Assembly: GCF_019175365.1 (NCBI RefSeq) | Contig: NZ_CP059572.1 | Location: 8,060,001-8,124,000, forward strand | DNA: 64,000 nt | Source: Actinomadura graeca | GTDB taxonomy: Bacteria > Actinomycetota > Actinomycetes > Streptosporangiales > Streptosporangiaceae | Reading direction: 5' to 3' | Shown: positions 4,108-35,503 of the stretch, one piece after another | How the letters are laid out: each line of letters opens with the position of its first letter | Numbering within the stretch: the first letter of the stretch is position 1 | The notes under the pieces: generated by a model | What the model saw: the letters and a program-made list of their open reading frames with translations, nothing else | The model's database searches: none | What the model was told of the DNA's origin: nothing | Position numbers and translations under genes: made by a program

Positions 4108-4977
4108 CTATTCGCCCGGCTTCGCGGACCTCGGCCCGAACGGCTCGGGACGGAACGGGTCGTCGCGGGCGCCGAGGAACGCCCGCAGGCCGCCCTCGGC
4201 CTTCGCCTCGTTGAGCCGTTCGCGCTGCGGCCCGTAGGAGGAGTGGGCCAGCGCGTTGAGCGCGCCGTTGAGCAGCAGGCCGCTGTCGAGGCCGGCCGCG
4301 CGCAGGCCCAGCATGGTGATCGCCTTGTTCAGCCGCACCGACGCCTCGGGCACCAGCGCGATGCGCCGGCCCAGCCGCCGCGCCGCCGCCAGCAGCTCGC
4401 CGGGCTCGACGACCTCGTTGACCACGCCGATGCGCAGCGCCTCGGCGGCGTCGAAGTGGTCGCCGGTCAGGGCGTAGCGGTTGGCGCTCTTCCACCCGCA
4501 CAGCGCCGCGAACAGGAAGATGGAGCTGGAGGTCATCCGCACCTCGGGCTGGGCGAAGACCGCGTCTGTGGAGGCGATGGTGATGTCGCAGGCCAGGCTG
4601 TACCAGAACCCGCCGCCCATGCACCAGCCGTTGACCGCGGCGATCACCGGCTTGGACAGGCTCCAGATCTCCCTGAGGTGGTCGAGCTCCTCGTAGTTGC
4701 GCTCGTACCAGTCGGCGATGACGTCCGACGGGTAGCGGGACGCGGGGCCGGACTGGTTCTGGCCTGTGGCCGCGGACATGTCGTAGCCGGAGCAGAACGC
4801 CCGGCCCGCCCCGGTCAGAACGATCGCGCGGACGTCCGGGTCGGCGCCGGCGCGGCGCAGGGCGTCGTGCAGTTCCCGTTCCAGGTCGAACGACAGGGCG
4901 TTCATGACCTCGGGCCGGTTGAGGGTGATGGTGGCGACGGCGTCGTCCACCTCGTACAGGATCGTTGCGTAGTCCAC
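4108..4977 (-). CDS. Enoyl-CoA hydratase/isomerase family protein
   Basis: A crotonase-fold protein of 289 residues. The oxyanion-hole segments are GAGRAFCSGYDM and NGWCMGGGFW, and AQPEVRM supplies a candidate catalytic Glu. The unusually aromatic stretch around RNYEELDHLREIWSLSKP differs from standard beta-oxidation hydratases, so another crotonase reaction is possible. The GTG at 4977 has a GAGGA motif nine bases upstream. A longer reading from ATG 5133 would overlap the upstream synthetase stop as ATGA, but it adds about 50 low-complexity residues foreign to the family. That start cannot be excluded. The gene lies 30 bases upstream of hutU. Confidence 0.85.
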   Translation of the reverse strand: MDYATILYEVDDAVATITLNRPEVMNALSFDLERELHDALRRAGADPDVRAIVLTGAGRAFCSGYDMSAATGQNQSGPASRYPSDVIADWYERNYEELDHLREIWSLSKPVIAAVNGWCMGGGFWYSLACDITIASTDAVFAQPEVRMTSSSIFLFAALCGWKSANRYALTGDHFDAAEALRIGVVNEVVEPGELLAAARRLGRRIALVPEASVRLNKAITMLGLRAAGLDSGLLLNGALNALAHSSYGPQRERLNEAKAEGGLRAFLGARDDPFRPEPFGPRSAKPGE

Positions 4978-5129
4978 GGGGGTGTGTTCCTCACGTGTCT
5001 GCGGCGGGCACAGGGCCGGGGCGGTGCTTCCGCCCAGGGACGCCCTGGTGCCGCCGGATTGCTCTCGGACGACGGTCCGGTGGCCGTCGCCGTCCGCCCG
5101 GCCGGCGCGGGGTGCGGGTGCCGGGCCGC

Positions 5130-7409
5130 TCATGGCGCCGTCCGCCCGGACGCGGCGACGATCCGCAGGTCGAGCACCCGCACGCCCTGTCCCTCCGGCA
5201 GCACGGCGACCGGGTTCAGGTCGATCTCCACCTCGGCCTCGCGTAGGTCGGCGGCCATCCGCGCGACGCGAAGGACGAGGCCGGCGAACGCGTCGGCGTC
5301 GGCCGGCGGGGCACCGCGGTAGCCGGCGAACAGGCGCGCCAGCGGCGTGCCGTCCACCATCCGCCGCACCTCGCGGGACGACACCGGCGGCAGCGCCAGC
5401 GCCGGGTCCGGTTGCAGCTCGACGAGCGTCCCGCCGGCGCCGAGCGCCAGCACCTGCCCGAACACCGGGTCGAGCCCGCACCCGACGAACGCCTCGACGC
5501 CGCCGGTGACCATCTCCTCCACCATGACCCGCGGCGCCGGCTCGCCGAGGTGCCGCGCCACCGACGCGGTGACGGCCTCGTAGGCCCCGCGCACCTGCGA
5601 CGGCGTGGACAGCCCGACCGCGACGCCGCCGAGGTCGCTCTTGTGCACCACCTTCGGCGACGCGGTCTTGAGCACGACCGGGTACCCGACCGAGCCGGCC
5701 GCCGCGGCCGCGCCGCCGGCCGACTCGGCGATGACCCGCCGCGGCAGCCGCAGCCCGTACCGCCCGGCCAGGTCGGCGAGCACGTCGTGCGGCACCTGCC
5801 CGGCGGGGGAGGCGTCGAGCGCCTGCCGCACCGCCGCCAGGGACGCCGCCCGCCGCCCGTCGTCGGCCGCCGCGCCTGCCGCCGTGTCGGCCACCGCCGC
5901 GGACGGTGCGCCGTCCGGCGCGGCGCGGGCGTGCGCCGCCACGGTGGTCACCGCGGCCACCGCCGCCATGCCGGCGCGGGTGCCGTGGACGACGGGGATG
6001 TCCGATCCGGCCAGCGCCACGGCGGCGAACGGGTGCAGCCCGCCGCCGTAGTTCGACAGCACCATGACCGGCGTGCCCGTGCTCCGCCGGACGCCCGGAA
6101 GGGTCTCCAGCAGGCGGGTGTAGGAGCCGGCCAGCCGCTCGCCCAGTGACGGCGGCGCGTCCAGGATGACGGTGAGGAGGTCGACCCCCTCGTCGGCGGC
6201 CACGGCCGCCGCGAGCCGCCCGAACCGCTCGGGATCGCCCACCAGCTGCCCGGTCCCGTCGAGCGGGTTGGCGATCGTCGCGAAGTCCGGCAGGATCCGC
6301 GCGAGCTCATCGCGGGTCCCCGGCGACAGCCGCGCGAGCCGCAGCGGCCCGCCGCCCCCGCCGCCCCTGCCGCCCTCGTCGTCGGCGGGACGGTCTCCCG
6401 CGTCGCCAGGCAGGGCCCCGAAATCGGCGGCGACGTCCGCGACCAGACCCGTCTCGCCACCGGACAGCCCGACGAACGCGACCCGGTCCCCGGCGGGGCG
6501 GGTGCGCAGGGTGGACAGCGCCACCAGCGCCTCGGTCAGCTCGTCGAAGTCGGCGGCCGCGACGATCCCGGCCCGCCGGCAGAACGCCTCGTAGGCCCGC
6601 GCGTCCCCGGCGATCGCGCCGGTGTGGGAGGCGACGTTGCGCGCGCCCAGCTCCGTCCGGCCCACCTTCAGGGCCACCACCGCGACGCCGTGGTCGTGTC
6701 CCTTCCGGACCGCGGCCATGACGCCCTCGGCGTCGCTGAGCCCCTCCACCACCAGGCCGACCGCCCGGGTGGACGGATCCTGGACGAGGTAGTCGAGGTA
6801 GTCGGCCAGGCCGGTCACGGTCTCGTTGCCGCTGGAGACGACGTAGGAGAACCCGAGCCGCCCGGAACCGGCCAGCAGGATGCATCCCGAGCCCGACTGG
6901 GACACCACGGCGACCGGCCCGGGGCGCAGGTCCGCGCCGTAGCCGGCCCCGGTCAGCCACAGGCCGCGGCCGGGGTTGAACACCCCCATGCAGTTCGGGC
7001 CGACCAGGCTCATGCCGTAGCGGCCCGCCAGCTCCCGCAGCCGGGCGGCACGCTCCGCGCCGCCGGCGGTCTCCTCGAACCCCGAGGCGTAGACGACGAC
7101 ACCCCGGCAGCCCTTCTCACCGGCCTGCTCGACCAGCCCCGCCACGCTGTCGCCGGGTGTGCAGACGAGCGCCACCGTCGGGGTGTCGGGCACCTCGGCC
7201 AGCGACCGGTACACCGGGACGGCGCCGACGTCCCGGCCGCTCGGATGGACGCCGTAGACCGCGCCGCCGAAGCCCGACCGCCGGAGGTTGCCGAGGATCC
7301 GGCCGCCGGTCGAGCCCGGCCGCGCCGACAGCCCGACGATCACGATGCTCTTCGGGTCGAGCAGGTCCGCCAGCGCGGGCTGGCGGTAGGTCCGGCCGCT
7401 ACCGCTCAT
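5130..7409 (-). CDS. ADP-forming acyl-CoA synthetase (acetate-CoA ligase family)
   Basis: A single-chain NDP-forming acyl-CoA synthetase of 759 residues. Domain order is CoA-binding Rossmann domain (about 10-140, with SIVIVGLSARPGS and GPNCMGV), succinyl-CoA-ligase-like domains with the phospho-histidine motif SHTGA near residue 265, and a C-terminal ATP-grasp half (about 540-759). A low-complexity Ala/Asp/Gly linker joins the halves. The enzyme makes an acyl-CoA from a free acid, ATP and CoA, or runs in reverse to conserve energy. Its start overlaps the ABC ATPase stop by 11 bases, so import and activation of the substrate appear coupled. Confidence 0.9.
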   Translation of the reverse strand: MSGSGRTYRQPALADLLDPKSIVIVGLSARPGSTGGRILGNLRRSGFGGAVYGVHPSGRDVGAVPVYRSLAEVPDTPTVALVCTPGDSVAGLVEQAGEKGCRGVVVYASGFEETAGGAERAARLRELAGRYGMSLVGPNCMGVFNPGRGLWLTGAGYGADLRPGPVAVVSQSGSGCILLAGSGRLGFSYVVSSGNETVTGLADYLDYLVQDPSTRAVGLVVEGLSDAEGVMAAVRKGHDHGVAVVALKVGRTELGARNVASHTGAIAGDARAYEAFCRRAGIVAAADFDELTEALVALSTLRTRPAGDRVAFVGLSGGETGLVADVAADFGALPGDAGDRPADDEGGRGGGGGGPLRLARLSPGTRDELARILPDFATIANPLDGTGQLVGDPERFGRLAAAVAADEGVDLLTVILDAPPSLGERLAGSYTRLLETLPGVRRSTGTPVMVLSNYGGGLHPFAAVALAGSDIPVVHGTRAGMAAVAAVTTVAAHARAAPDGAPSAAVADTAAGAAADDGRRAASLAAVRQALDASPAGQVPHDVLADLAGRYGLRLPRRVIAESAGGAAAAAGSVGYPVVLKTASPKVVHKSDLGGVAVGLSTPSQVRGAYEAVTASVARHLGEPAPRVMVEEMVTGGVEAFVGCGLDPVFGQVLALGAGGTLVELQPDPALALPPVSSREVRRMVDGTPLARLFAGYRGAPPADADAFAGLVLRVARMAADLREAEVEIDLNPVAVLPEGQGVRVLDLRIVAASGRTAP

Positions 7410-31110: not shown

Positions 31111-32340
31111 TCATCTCCGCCTGGGCGGTTCGTAGGTCAGCTTCGACTCCTGGAAGCGGGCGTCGAACGCCTGCATCTCCTCGTCGATCAGGCTCGCGAG
31201 ATAGAACGCGGCGCCCTCCACGGTACGCACCCCGGCGAGCCGCCGCGCCCGGACCCTGCGGTACTGCCGCCGCGCCGACCGGCCGAGGGCCATGCCGGGG
31301 ACGACCAGCAGCCGCCCGACCTTGGGCACCCCCACCAGGGCCGCGGTGAGGACCGCGAACACGTTGATGTGCACGCCGGTCGGCCCGACCTTCAGTTCCG
31401 ACGCCGACTGCGCCGCCCGCCCGAACTCGACGGCCGCGCGCCGGTCCGCCTCGATCTCCGCCGGGTCCCGCGGGACGGTCGCGATCTGCACGAAGTGGTC
31501 GGTGATGTCGGCGACGGCCGCCGCCAGCGGGACGATCACGTTCTGCCGGCTGAGGCGCCCGCCCGGATCACGTTGCACGGTCATATCCTCGCCGAGGAAC
31601 GCGACCCCGCCATAGCCGCTCACGGGGATCAGGCGCACCCGGCCCAGAAGCGACTTCCTGAACCGCTGGCGCCGGGAGGTGCGGTTGGCGACGAACACCG
31701 CGAACCCCGTCTCGGGCGGCGTGGCCAGCAGCGCGTCGCGCACCTCGGTGAACGTGAAGCGACCCTCGAACAGATCCCACTTGGTCACCAGGAAGTGCAC
31801 GGGCTGCGCGGCGCCCTTGAGACGCCCGACCACCCGCGCCAGGTTGTCCAGGAACGCCTTTTCGTCCCGCGGCCCGGAGCGCAGCATGTACTTCAGCAAC
31901 TGGTGGCCGTCGATGATGCCCAGCAGGGCGTCCGCGGCGGCGAGACGCTCGTCGAACTCGGCCGCCTCCTCCTGGAACAGGTCGGCGTCGGGGAGGAACT
32001 CGCCCGCGTAGTCGAGGTAGGTCAGCGTCAGCACCGGATACCTGCTGCCGACGAGCTGGTTCCGCCAGGTGATCCTCGACGCCTCGACGACCAGGCGGAA
32101 GGTGAACTCCCTGATCCCCTCGCCCGTCAGCGTGCTCGCCGGCCACTCCTGGCACGGATCCGCGGCCTGCCGGTGGATCCGGTCGAGTTCCGCCGCCTGC
32201 GCCGACTGGGCCAGTGACACCGCCACACCCGGGAACGGATCGCTCTTCACCTCGTTGTGCAACGCCGCGAGATAGGTCGTCTTGCCCGCGCCGGGCGCAC
32301 CCAGCGCGATGACGTTCAGCGCCGCACGCTCCTCGCCCAC
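31111..32340 (-). CDS. P-loop GTPase-like protein (TRAFAC type)
   Basis: A 409-residue nucleotide-binding protein. Walker A is GAPGAGKTT (residues 14-22), a G3-like DxxG is in TYLDYAGEF, and a G4-like TKWD is in FLVTKWDLF. A hydrophobic stretch near residue 315 (HINVFAVLTAALVGVPK) suggests membrane association. GTG 32340 with GGGGG eight bases upstream is the chosen start; GTG 32349 is an alternative. Such proteins occur in actinobacteria beside membrane-anchored partners, as here, and their roles are mostly unknown. Confidence 0.75.
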   Translation of the reverse strand: MGEERAALNVIALGAPGAGKTTYLAALHNEVKSDPFPGVAVSLAQSAQAAELDRIHRQAADPCQEWPASTLTGEGIREFTFRLVVEASRITWRNQLVGSRYPVLTLTYLDYAGEFLPDADLFQEEAAEFDERLAAADALLGIIDGHQLLKYMLRSGPRDEKAFLDNLARVVGRLKGAAQPVHFLVTKWDLFEGRFTFTEVRDALLATPPETGFAVFVANRTSRRQRFRKSLLGRVRLIPVSGYGGVAFLGEDMTVQRDPGGRLSRQNVIVPLAAAVADITDHFVQIATVPRDPAEIEADRRAAVEFGRAAQSASELKVGPTGVHINVFAVLTAALVGVPKVGRLLVVPGMALGRSARRQYRRVRARRLAGVRTVEGAAFYLASLIDEEMQAFDARFQESKLTYEPPRRR

Positions 32341-32587
32341 GACAGACACCCCCCAGTGGTCATCCGATTCCGGAAAGCCAGAATGCCCGCCCCGGCCCGT
32401 CTTCGGCGCCCGGTCAGTCCGGATTGCCCGCAAGAGGACACCCGGCCGTCGGCCGGTCCCACGGAGTCCGGCGGCACGCGCGCCCCGGGGACGGTCGCCC
32501 GGCCGCCGCCATCCGTTCCGATTCCGATGACTTCTGGGTCGCGTGATGGTCCACCCTTTGACACGCGATTCGACCGGAGGTGATCAC

Positions 32588-34186: not shown

Positions 34187-34389
34187 GACGCGATCGTTTC
34201 ATGTCCGCGTGATCCATCGAATGAATCCTCATCCCGGCGTCACCGGCTGGAGAAGACGCGCGGCATGGCCGAAGCTCCTTCCGACCGGCACTCTCCGGTG
34301 GGGGCGCGATGCTCGTCCAGGAGAAGGCGCCGCCCGGCGCGGCACGGTCAAGGGCGGGCGCTCTGAGACTCCTCGCACGTGACGGCAGC

Positions 34390-34421
34390 GGGCCCCGGAG
34401 CATGCCCATGCTCCGGGGCCC
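34390..34421 (-). terminator. Perfect 14-bp terminator hairpin after the tRNA-like RNAs
   Basis: Two perfect 14-base arms (34390-34403 and 34408-34421) enclose a 4-base loop. The hairpin is 24 bases beyond the end of the second tRNA-like RNA on the leftward strand. It closes the unit that begins with the 243-residue protein gene at 35503. No U tract follows, as is common in high-GC bacteria. Confidence 0.85.
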
Positions 34422-34444
34422 TCGGTGTTCCGCCCACGTGCACA

Positions 34445-34580
34445 CGCCGACGGCGTTTAAGGAGGCGGATCAGTCCTGAGGCCGCTGTGCTCTGCCCTTG
34501 AGCTACCGCGGCAGGAAGAGCCGCGGGCCAGATTCGAACTGGCATCCAGCGAGTGCCGTCCGCCTCCGCTCGATCCGGCG
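34445..34580 (-). ncRNA. Inside-out (permuted) tRNA-like RNA, copy 2
   Basis: Read leftward, the parts of a tRNA appear in permuted order. First comes anticodon-stem strand CGCTG (34551-34547), three variable bases, and a perfect T arm: GCCAG, loop TTCGAAT, CTGGC. Then comes acceptor 3' strand CCGCGGC (34526-34520), a 7-base cap loop, and acceptor 5' strand GCCGCGG (34512-34506), a perfect 7-bp stem. U8-A9, a 4-bp D stem GCTC/GAGC with loop AAGGGCA, A26 and CAGCG (34487-34483) follow; CAGCG pairs with CGCTG. Beyond an internal loop, GGAGGCGG (34567-34560) pairs with CCGCCTCC (34468-34461), then CGCCG with CGGCG. No CCA end is encoded. The fold matches YrlA tRNA-like modules or a permuted tRNA. 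Confidence 0.85.
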
Positions 34581-34593
34581 ATGAGCGGAGAGT

Positions 34594-34722
34594 GCTGAGT
34601 CTGGAGCGAGAATCTGAGTGTGACGGGCTGCCTCTGCCTGTTGGGCCACCCGGGCCCGAATGCCCGGGGGAGGACTCGAACCTCCACTGTCACCGCGTTT
34701 CAGATTGAACTTCATTCTCAGC
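34594..34722 (-). ncRNA. Inside-out (permuted) tRNA-like RNA, copy 1
   Basis: Same architecture as copy 2 with different sequence. The T arm is GGAGG, loop TTCGAGT, CCTCC (34685-34669). Acceptor 3' strand CCCGGGC (34668-34662) and 5' strand GCCCGGG (34655-34649) pair perfectly and are joined by a 6-base loop containing UUCG. The D arm GCC/GGC with an 11-base loop holding GG resembles tRNA-Leu D arms. The RNA ends form a three-part stem: GTGAC with GTCAC, AATCTGA with TCAGATT, and GCTGAG (34722-34717) with CTCAGC (34599-34594). Five extra bases separate the D arm from the anticodon-like stem, a departure from true tRNA. It starts two bases after the twin hairpins. Confidence 0.8.
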
Positions 34723-34724
34723 TT

Positions 34725-34762
34725 CCGGGGCCTGCGCCCCGGCCCCCGCGCTCCAGCGGGGG
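34725..34762 (-). other. Two abutting hairpins between the protein gene and the RNAs
   Basis: Two perfect 7-bp hairpins lie back to back: 34743-34749 with 34756-34762 (6-base loop) and 34725-34731 with 34736-34742 (4-base loop). They begin ten bases after the stop of the 243-residue protein gene and end two bases before the first tRNA-like RNA. They may separate the mRNA from the RNAs by processing or attenuation. If they were a full terminator, the RNAs would need their own promoter, and none is visible in the two-base gap. Confidence 0.7.
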
Positions 34763-34771
34763 AGTCCTCGG

Positions 34772-35503
34772 TCAGGAGAAAAGGTAGGCGAACACCGCCT
34801 CGCCGACCTTCCTGTCGGTCACCTCGATGCCGTTGGCCTCCTCGCGCGCGAACTTCACCGCGGACTGCAGCTTGGCGACGCGCTCACGCAGCTCGTTCAC
34901 GCGCCGGGCAGGAAGTGAGCCGGAGAACGCGGTCTTCGTCCACGTCCCGACGATGACGTCCTCGGTGTAGGTCTCCACCTGCGCGGGGTGCTCCGTGGTC
35001 GCCTCGTACAGCACGTGCGCACGCGGGATCTTCTTGGTCCGCGTCGTCTTCACCGGCTCGGTCCGCCACACGTCCGCGGACTCGTCGAACGTCCACGACT
35101 CGGCGGCGTCCAGCACCGGAAGCTTGTCCACGAACGTGTGGAGGTCGGTGAGCTGCTTCTCCAGGAAGAGCAGATACGAGACGGGGACCTGCGCGAGGAT
35201 CGTCCGCCCGTCCACGACCACGTCGGCGCGGGCGTCGCAGTTCGCCCAGTCCTTCGTCGCCACGACGTCGAAGAGCCGGGTGAGCGCCCTCGCCGCCTCG
35301 GCCAGCATCTCCTCGGCCTTCACCTGCACCCGCGTCGACTCGGGCGGCAGGACCTCGCCCTCGTCGTCGAGCGGCTGGTAGGTCCGGGAGATCCCCGTCA
35401 GCAGCGGCATCTTCTGAACGCGGTGATGGATGTCGGTCAGCTCACGCTGCGCGCGCGACTTCGCGCCCTTCTCGACCGCGATGATCTGATTCAGCTTCGC
35501 CAC
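34772..35503 (-). CDS. Conserved actinobacterial protein of unknown function linked to tRNA-like RNAs
   Basis: A 243-residue soluble, charged protein without signal peptide or membrane span. It begins with a basic helix (AKLNQIIAVEKGAKSRAQRE) and has a central block RLFDVVATKDWANCDARAD and VPVSYLLFLEKQLTDLHTF, then a KTTRTKKIPRAH segment and a C-terminal coiled-coil-like helix (VNELRERVAKLQSAVKFARE). I recall similar uncharacterised proteins in other actinomycetes but no assigned role. GTG 35503 with GGAGG nine bases upstream is the start. The gene directly precedes two tRNA-like RNAs on the same strand, so RNA binding or processing is a reasonable guess. No catalytic motif was identified. 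Confidence 0.8.
   Translation of the reverse strand: MAKLNQIIAVEKGAKSRAQRELTDIHHRVQKMPLLTGISRTYQPLDDEGEVLPPESTRVQVKAEEMLAEAARALTRLFDVVATKDWANCDARADVVVDGRTILAQVPVSYLLFLEKQLTDLHTFVDKLPVLDAAESWTFDESADVWRTEPVKTTRTKKIPRAHVLYEATTEHPAQVETYTEDVIVGTWTKTAFSGSLPARRVNELRERVAKLQSAVKFAREEANGIEVTDRKVGEAVFAYLFS

Follow-up and report, generated by a model that had tools for sequence, protein, structure and literature searches.

The window, i.e., the whole stretch of 64,000 nucleotides from Actinomadura graeca that was analyzed, encodes on its minus strand a protein of the DUF7873 family (PF25283; 34772-35566, 264 amino acids as called) and, behind this gene, two tandem RNAs, referred to in the following as copy 1 (34722-34594) and copy 2 (34580-34445). 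The earlier note on this DNA had described the two RNAs and had overlooked the protein gene, which is their partner and alters what the finding is. Inspection of the sequence showed a hairpin of the CCCCCGC/GCGGGGG type just past the stop codon of the DUF7873 gene (34743-34762, minus strand), and similar hairpins are present in the homologues displayed. A second, long hairpin lies past both RNAs (34390-34421, minus strand) and is a probable terminator, albeit one that a simple terminator scan, which wants a run of T, did not call. The bacterial consensus contains a hairpin like it with a similar apical loop, and 25 of 26 phage or viral tails carry one with a perfect helix of 10-12 bp, the loop of which holds GGNTA or GGNCA in 23 of 25 cases. 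Such a conserved apical loop is more than a plain terminator would need. A few kb downstream of the cassette, a protein of 440 amino acids with a match to DO-GTPase2 (PF19993, E 5.2e-07) is encoded on the minus strand (31111-32433).

In both RNAs the parts follow each other in the same order, namely the 5′ strand of a basal stem, the T arm, the 3′ acceptor strand, a linker, the 5′ acceptor strand, the D arm and the 3′ strand of the basal stem. Re-reading of the sequence confirmed the positions given in the earlier note for both RNAs as well as its central observation that the halves of a tRNA are swapped in each of them, with the T arm and 3′ acceptor strand placed before the 5′ acceptor strand and D arm. 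In copy 2, all helices named there were located on the minus strand: the 7-bp acceptor (34520-34526 with 34506-34512, joined by a 7-nt linker), the 5-bp T arm with TTCGAAT (34527-34543), the 4-bp D arm (34489-34503), the 5-bp anticodon-like stem (34547-34551 with its 3′ strand at 34483-34487) and, further down, a basal helix of 8 bp (34559-34566 with 34462-34469). An outermost helix of 6 bp (34575-34580 with 34445-34450, corresponding to RNAalifold columns 6-11 with 159-164) closes the long basal stem. Between these two basal helices lies an internal loop, whose 5′ side, the conserved ATCGANC (34568-34574), faces CTTAAACG on the 3′ side (34454-34461), a stretch conserved in bacteria and phages that we propose as a putative protein-binding site.

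Copy 1 has the same arms in the same order, comprising a 5-bp T arm with TTCGAGT (34669-34685), a 7-bp acceptor with a 6-nt linker (34662-34668 with 34649-34655) and a D arm (34630-34646), the stem of which measures 3 bp, not 4 as expected from the claim that the plan is that of copy 2. Sequence inspection placed a proximal stem below the head (34689-34693 with 34620-34624), followed by a basal stem with the 5′ strand GCTGAG...AATCTGA (34700-34722) and a 3′ strand (34594-34617) in which, according to the comparison of homologues, TCAGAYTCTCGCTCCAGNNTCAGC is strongly conserved in bacteria. Positions 34655 and 34512, formerly proposed as sites of RNase P cleavage, are the 5′ ends of the two 5′ acceptor strands.

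A strict descriptor of the inside-out head (a 5-bp T stem with a TTCRA loop, at least six of seven acceptor pairs and at least three D pairs) was applied to 80 genome loci retrieved by DUF7873 similarity, drawn from a set of at least 542 genome stretches coding for a related protein. Within 600 nt past DUF7873 it found two copies in 67 of these loci, one in 12 and none in 1, as opposed to 8 matches in the 1.14 Mb that make up the remainder of the same 80 loci on both strands. Because the matches cluster behind DUF7873 in this way, chance is excluded as the origin of the two folds, in agreement with the earlier note. At the descriptor-negative locus from Ktedonobacter (L171), both RNAs were recovered by covariance model with 86.4 and 76.6 bits. 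Altogether, both copies were recognized by the descriptor at 92 of 151 loci (65 of 80 genome loci, 24 of 56 viral loci, 2 of 14 phage records and the window). From these 92, 60 sequences were chosen for the copy 2 alignment A4 (the window, 39 from bacteria and 20 of viral or phage origin) and 57 for the copy 1 alignment A5. Covariance models were built for copy 2 (R1) and copy 1 (R2), with training loci that include members of the host genus; in the window, R1 matches at 34443-34583 with 144.8 bits and R2 at 34597-34729 with 131.3 bits, scores that are partly due to construction as the window belongs to the training set.

General-purpose searches of the window returned little, since ARAGORN found no tRNA and Rfam reported nothing at its gathering threshold, tmRNA included. 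Nor does the folding energy of this region stand out (z = -1.56, with 7 of 100 shuffles folding as well), and energy alone would therefore have missed the structure. Below threshold, Rfam proposed a tRNA of normal order at 34661-34731 (26.5 bits, gathering threshold 29), for which the 3′ acceptor strand of copy 1 has to pair with the stretch upstream of it. When an upstream partner with 6 or 7 of 7 pairs was sought as the best of 35 positions, one was present at 39 of the 92 loci, compared to 44 of 92 when the strand was taken from a swapped locus. An upstream partner is thus no commoner than in the control, which leaves the normal-order tRNA unsupported. The inside-out partner of the same strand pairs at 7 of 7 positions in 89 loci and at 6 of 7 in the other 3, the descriptor requiring at least six.

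In copy 2, covariation supports every helix. Across the 60 aligned sequences 94.1% of the cells are paired, changes on both sides of a pair occur in 28 of 29 pairs and in all five helices, and none of 500 shuffles reached any of five measures; in a control in which the partner was slid by 1-3 columns, pairing amounted to 34-44%. Within the head, the T arm is paired in 100% of cells (a pairing required by the descriptor) with both-sided changes in 5 of 5 pairs, the acceptor in 99.3% (at least 6 of 7 pairs required) with such changes in 7 of 7, and the D arm in 97.5% (at least 3 pairs required) with changes in 3 of 4. Since the descriptor selected for these three elements, the stems below the head represent the independent evidence. 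There, the anticodon-like stem is paired in 81.2% of cells and matches its own partner better than the mean of swapped partners in 80 of 92 loci, and the basal helix, which the descriptor did not use, is paired in 91.1% with both-sided changes in all 8 pairs. In addition, RNAalifold identified the outermost 6-bp helix as a sixth one outside the other five, with compensatory changes in all six pairs, so that the conserved internal loop sits between two covarying helices.

For copy 1, covariation firmly supports the tRNA-like head and less firmly its base. Among the 57 sequences of the alignment the T arm is paired in 100% of cells (again as required by the descriptor) with both-sided changes in 4 of 5 pairs, the acceptor in 99.2% (at least 6 of 7 required) with such changes in all 7, and the D arm in 99.4%. 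As a whole, the structure was matched by none of 500 shuffles in four measures and by 2 of 500 in the fifth. The 7-bp basal helix is paired in 79.9% of cells with both-sided changes in 3 of 7 pairs, its sequence being otherwise largely fixed. In the proximal stem, only 39.6% of the alignment cells are paired, while its own partner exceeds the mean of swapped partners in 76 of 92 loci. As evidence against its folds, the earlier note had named homologous loci in which the pairings are not kept up by compensatory changes; what the comparison revealed is compensation throughout copy 2 and in the head of copy 1, with a weaker signal at the base of copy 1.

Beyond the helices, the heads also keep positions that build the elbow of a tRNA. 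The contact between positions 15 and 48 played no part in the search for the RNAs; in copy 2, it is formed by A-T in 81 and by G-C in 11 of the 92 sequences, two of which have one extra base before the D loop and were read in a shifted register. In copy 1, A-T forms this contact in 82 of 92 sequences, and the other 10 lack a standard pair. All 92 sequences of either copy have T at position 8; A is found at position 14 in 92 of 92 sequences of copy 1 and 90 of 92 of copy 2, and the GG of the D loop in 88 of 92 and 90 of 92, respectively. Together with the TTCRA loop, which is present by selection, the latter provides copy 2 with the target loops of TruB and DusA, the enzymes that modify YrlA. 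The discriminator (position 73) is A in 84 of 92 sequences of copy 1 and T or G in 91 of 92 of copy 2. The RNAs thus form an ordered pair, the two heads of which may mimic different tRNAs.

NCCA follows the acceptor strand in 29 of 92 sequences of copy 1 and 24 of 92 of copy 2. The presence of this motif in some copies and the swapped halves would fit permuted tRNA genes, i.e., transcripts that are circularized and cut into working tRNAs, which had been one of two alternatives offered by the earlier note. We consider this reading hardly tenable: the place of the anticodon is taken by a conserved basal domain with covarying helices of its own, more than two thirds of the copies have no NCCA, the host genome contains 65 tRNA matches over the Rfam cut-off (counted together for all anticodons), and 11 of 80 genome loci have lost the tRNA arms of copy 1. 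At these 11 loci (L132, L149, L152, L162, L166, L168, L180, L181, L182, L185, and L193) copy 1 matches over only 61-94 nt; the basal stem is retained and ends in a plain hairpin or loop, with T arm, acceptor and D arm missing. This natural loss of the head offers a ready-made control for the question which part of the RNA does what.

The genomic linkage of the RNAs to DUF7873 is tight. Copy 2 lies behind the gene at 80 of 80 genome loci, where it is complete in all cases (65 recognized by the descriptor, 15 by R1). The earlier note had suggested a covariance-model search of actinobacterial genomes, which here found copy 2 wherever the gene was intact: in a sample of relatives, some of which also contributed to the 80 loci, R1 scored at least 60 bits in 30 of 30 DUF7873-positive and 0 of 29 negative genomes, and R2 in 29 of 30 and 0 of 29, respectively. 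In an even sample of the class, which overlaps with the former in at least G000, G040-G044, G052, and G056, R1 reached 60 bits in 17 of 17 genomes with intact DUF7873 (host included), in 0 of 1 with a broken gene and in 0 of 178 without one. The thresholds of 60 bits and, for viral loci, 59 bits for R1 were set after the scores had been seen, with the best negative at 57.7 bits (G005), about 1 kb from a match to TROVE, the Ro60 domain. As R1 and R2 were trained on loci from the host genus, their positives are partly a matter of construction, and the negatives are the informative side. In the genome with the broken gene, DUF7873 is present as two partial matches (G217:C27:2942-3232) and no R1 match at E 1e-8 or better was found; gene and RNA may have been lost together. 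The neighborhood yielded no third conserved gene, the next most frequent family being present at 6 of 80 genome loci.

The DUF7873 gene also occurs in phages that infect cyanobacteria, actinobacteria, and proteobacteria, with 73 records found. Four of 60 viral loci (L076, L082, L111, and L115) were excluded owing to truncation of the gene or of its downstream side. Among the remaining 56, which hold near-duplicate pairs such as L064/L065, L067/L077, and L088/L089, R1 scored at least 59 bits in 52 and R2 at least 50 bits in 48; the four loci without R1 at this level are L064, L065, L083, and L095. If only the 37 viral loci outside the training of R1 are considered, 33 reach 59 bits, some of them as near-duplicates of training loci. 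For very divergent phage genes, with 27-31% identity to the window protein where aligned, R1 gave 43.9, 41.1, 40.1, and 39.4 bits in L048, L053, L051, and L052. The Vibrio phages L049 and L050 scored 27.1 and 27.7 bits as compared to up to 26.8 bits for ordinary tRNAs (in L048), so the RNA is not established in these two. Overall, the package of gene and RNAs recurs in many soil bacteria and phages, and the inside-out RNAs account for the often unannotated gap behind DUF7873 genes in the phage records examined.

Three phage loci deserve separate mention. In the Microcoleus phage My-WqHQDG (L047), a HEARO RNA (4941-5150, 129.1 bits) and an open frame (5175-6452) lie between DUF7873 and the RNAs, which are matched by R2 at 6544-6679 (52.5 bits) and by R1 at 6795-6923 (31.8 bits); an insertion has apparently split the cassette and left both parts in place. 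In the Klebsiella phage vB_KpM_FBKp24 (L052), an annotated 'tRNA-Sup-TTA' (4766-4845) overlaps the match of the copy 2 model (4799-4917) and may be an erroneous annotation based on a portion of an inside-out RNA. In the Gordonia phage Phendrix (L043), an Rfam tmRNA match with 89 bits (2063-2591) is located in the tRNA array adjoining the cassette.

Wherever the RNAs were found, they lie directly downstream of DUF7873 on the same strand. Such an arrangement could also result from a role in cis, in which the tandem structures would form the 3′ untranslated region of the DUF7873 mRNA and stabilize or control it, for example by autoregulation through binding of DUF7873. A scan of 34350-34900, albeit weak for GC-rich DNA, revealed no sigma-70-like promoter, which would fit such a role. 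Conserved elbow positions and compensatory changes in acceptors of 7 bp nevertheless exceed the apparent needs of a stabilizer, and the closest relatives, the YrlA RNAs, are described in passages of PMC8394870 as parts of a particle. We regard a cis element as rather improbable.

The DUF7873 protein itself is an unequivocal member of PF25283 (392.5 bits with a cut-off of 27, E 1.1e-117, residues 23-263), and most aligned homologues start near codon 22 (about position 35503) of the called frame. The protein alignment A3 omits L086, which has a stop inside the matched stretch, and enters L067 and L113, which have the same problem, from a later start; L073, L107, L114, and some near-duplicates are left out as well. 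With an E-value of up to 0.1, a Pfam search of the 264-residue protein returned only PF25283 and no TROVE domain, and the PADLOC models for anti-phage defense yielded no family at the same limit. At least 6995 protein clusters among 7999 scored match the DUF7873 profile; the 120 clusters listed all carry PF25283, with names, where given, of 'hypothetical', 'uncharacterized' or 'DUF7873 family', in line with the Pfam label of a family of unknown function. AlphaFold2 modeled 243 residues with a mean pLDDT of 94.2 and a pTM of 0.78 in the best model (91.7, 73.2, 59.3, and 54.3 for the pLDDT of the other four), predicting long helices and a long beta hairpin. Fold searches with this model gave no solved or viral structure at E ≤ 0.001 and no clear relative that would indicate RNA binding, which, the search being weak, says nothing on the novelty of the fold, and among PDB sequences none was closer than E 0.067. 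Within the library searched, passages on Y RNAs included, no paper names DUF7873, and an earlier mention of this locus elsewhere is possible. The link of PF25283 to these RNAs is new information and gives a large uncharacterized protein family a function to test.

The RNAs behind DUF7873 are separate from the Ro60 loci. In the host genome, which is 96.86% complete, no TROVE match was found, and the gene next to the RNAs is DUF7873. Among the relatives, 20 of 59 have TROVE matches, 12 of them with and 8 without DUF7873, so that in this sample the two proteins neither exclude nor need each other. An R1- or R2-type match lies within 4 kb of 17 of 23 TROVE places, and of 10 TROVE loci read with the descriptor 6 hold one to three inside-out RNAs. 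The TROVE-linked RNAs displayed have the same head as the DUF7873 set on another basal stem, with GCCCGGTGCG..GGATACTT facing TGATCTCGGGC, a contrast suggesting that it is the basal stem that varies with the protein. One TROVE locus also has a match to selenocysteine tRNA (L032, 211-302, 69.9 bits), about 250 nt ahead of its inside-out RNA. Against the Rfam family of YrlA (RF02553), the two window RNAs score 36.6 and 21.1 bits, below the gathering threshold of 69, and this score is reached at 0 of 33 other DUF7873 loci. Since the TROVE-linked RNAs of the relatives (TROVE places L032-L041) also remain below it, with 48.6 bits at best, the threshold does not discriminate between the two sets. 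An ordinary Y RNA locus, with its Ro60 gene lost or located elsewhere, would be consistent with the common architecture of the heads. It is nonetheless a very improbable explanation, given that basal stems differ between the two sets of RNAs, that 18 of 30 DUF7873-positive relatives have no TROVE match, and that in relatives with both systems R1 finds RNAs at each place (e.g., G011, G023, and G031). Of the two alternatives of the earlier note, the observations hence favor Y-like RNAs lacking a Ro60 partner: the host has no TROVE match, the plan is that of YrlA, and the basal stem extends where the anticodon would be, which, with the NCCA and tRNA counts given above, also speaks against bacterial permuted tRNAs.

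Taken together, we think that the locus is probably a cassette for a Y-RNA-like ribonucleoprotein, with DUF7873 taking the place of Ro60. For the bacterial YrlA, a modular organization is described in passages of PMC8394870, with a basal stem that tethers Rsr (Ro60) and a tRNA-like domain that binds PNPase to form the decay machine RYPER; a particle of Ro60, YrlA, and PNPase also appears in passages of PMC8058203. At the present locus, DUF7873 would bind the conserved basal stems, with their internal loops, of both downstream RNAs, and the two heads, keeping the tRNA elbow without an anticodon, would serve as tRNA mimics for an enzyme that binds tRNA or processes RNA. The heads would recruit or occupy an enzyme that reads the elbow, and by analogy with the Ro60 particle the likely outcome would be a particle for RNA quality control or RNA decay with DUF7873 in the position of Ro60. 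RNAs with the same head and another basal stem at TROVE loci would be expected from a division of labor in which the basal stem is tailored to the protein and the head performs the function. Expression of the RNAs, their direct binding by DUF7873, and the enzyme recruited by the head are inferred from sequence. PNPase or another decay enzyme is a possible target, to which we assign about half of the confidence placed in the cassette as such.

The main rival to a DUF7873 ribonucleoprotein with a decay enzyme as target shares the same anatomy, is compatible with the ribonucleoprotein reading and differs only in the target: the heads could act as tRNA decoys that occupy anticodon nucleases, tRNA-modifying enzymes or other tRNA-binding toxins, with DUF7873 stabilizing or delivering them and phages using them to protect their own tRNAs. 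The retained elbow positions would suit such a function, and in four annotated phages the DUF7873 gene lies inside a tRNA array. Yet the anticodon loop, at which anticodon nucleases act, is absent here, and an Rfam scan of 12 bacterial loci found a tRNA in only one (L192). Passages of one study propose a role of YrlA as a competitive inhibitor (Hughes et al., PMC7790460) and also report that YrlA fragments were undetected in Salmonella under conditions of tRNA cleavage, from which its authors infer that YrlA is not a substrate. In sum, a decoy function appears unlikely, though less so than the other rivals discussed above.

In the passages considered here, bacterial Y RNAs are described via one protein, Ro60. 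If the favored cassette is real, a second protein family on the same tRNA-mimic RNA would suggest that the head is the shared working part. In a wider sense, DUF7873 and its RNAs might represent a second, independent family of Y-type ribonucleoproteins, with the tRNA-mimic head as a portable effector grafted onto Ro60 and DUF7873, RNA-binding proteins unrelated to each other, and with phages spreading the DUF7873 form to control the turnover of tRNA or structured RNA in the infected cell; for this broader proposal we see the chances as evenly balanced.

Y RNAs have been reported from phages, mycobacteriophages included (passages of PMC7765460 and PMC12282133), yrlA has been predicted in some mycobacteria (passage of PMC9569102), and some jumbo phages have TROVE proteins (passage of PMC7824862). 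With YrlA (RF02553) the RNAs of the window share the inside-out head with its order of T arm, acceptor and D arm, to which covariation and the 15-48 contact of copy 2 attest, and a basal stem formed by the ends of the RNA, fully for copy 2 and in part for copy 1. Further likenesses to the Ro60-YrlA system are tandem copies, as at some TROVE loci, the position adjoining the protein gene and the occurrence in bacteria as well as phages. They differ from it in the partner, which is DUF7873 and not TROVE, in their location downstream of the protein gene, whereas TROVE-linked RNAs precede the matched part of TROVE by about 1-3 kb, in the sequences of the basal stems, and in the ordered pair of A73 in copy 1 and T73 or G73 in copy 2.

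Permuted tRNA genes are known from algae and archaea, and in both these genes and the window RNAs the 3′ half is encoded before the 5′ half; in contrast to the former, the window RNAs have a long basal stem and no anticodon, and they occur in a host with 65 tRNA matches. In tmRNA, a tRNA-like domain is likewise part of a larger RNA that has a small protein as its partner, but tmRNA has another order of helices and belongs to a separate Rfam family. Judged by sequence, the window RNAs are thus of YrlA-like architecture and, because the defining partner Ro60 was not found, are to be classified as a variant distinct from the Ro60-YrlA system.
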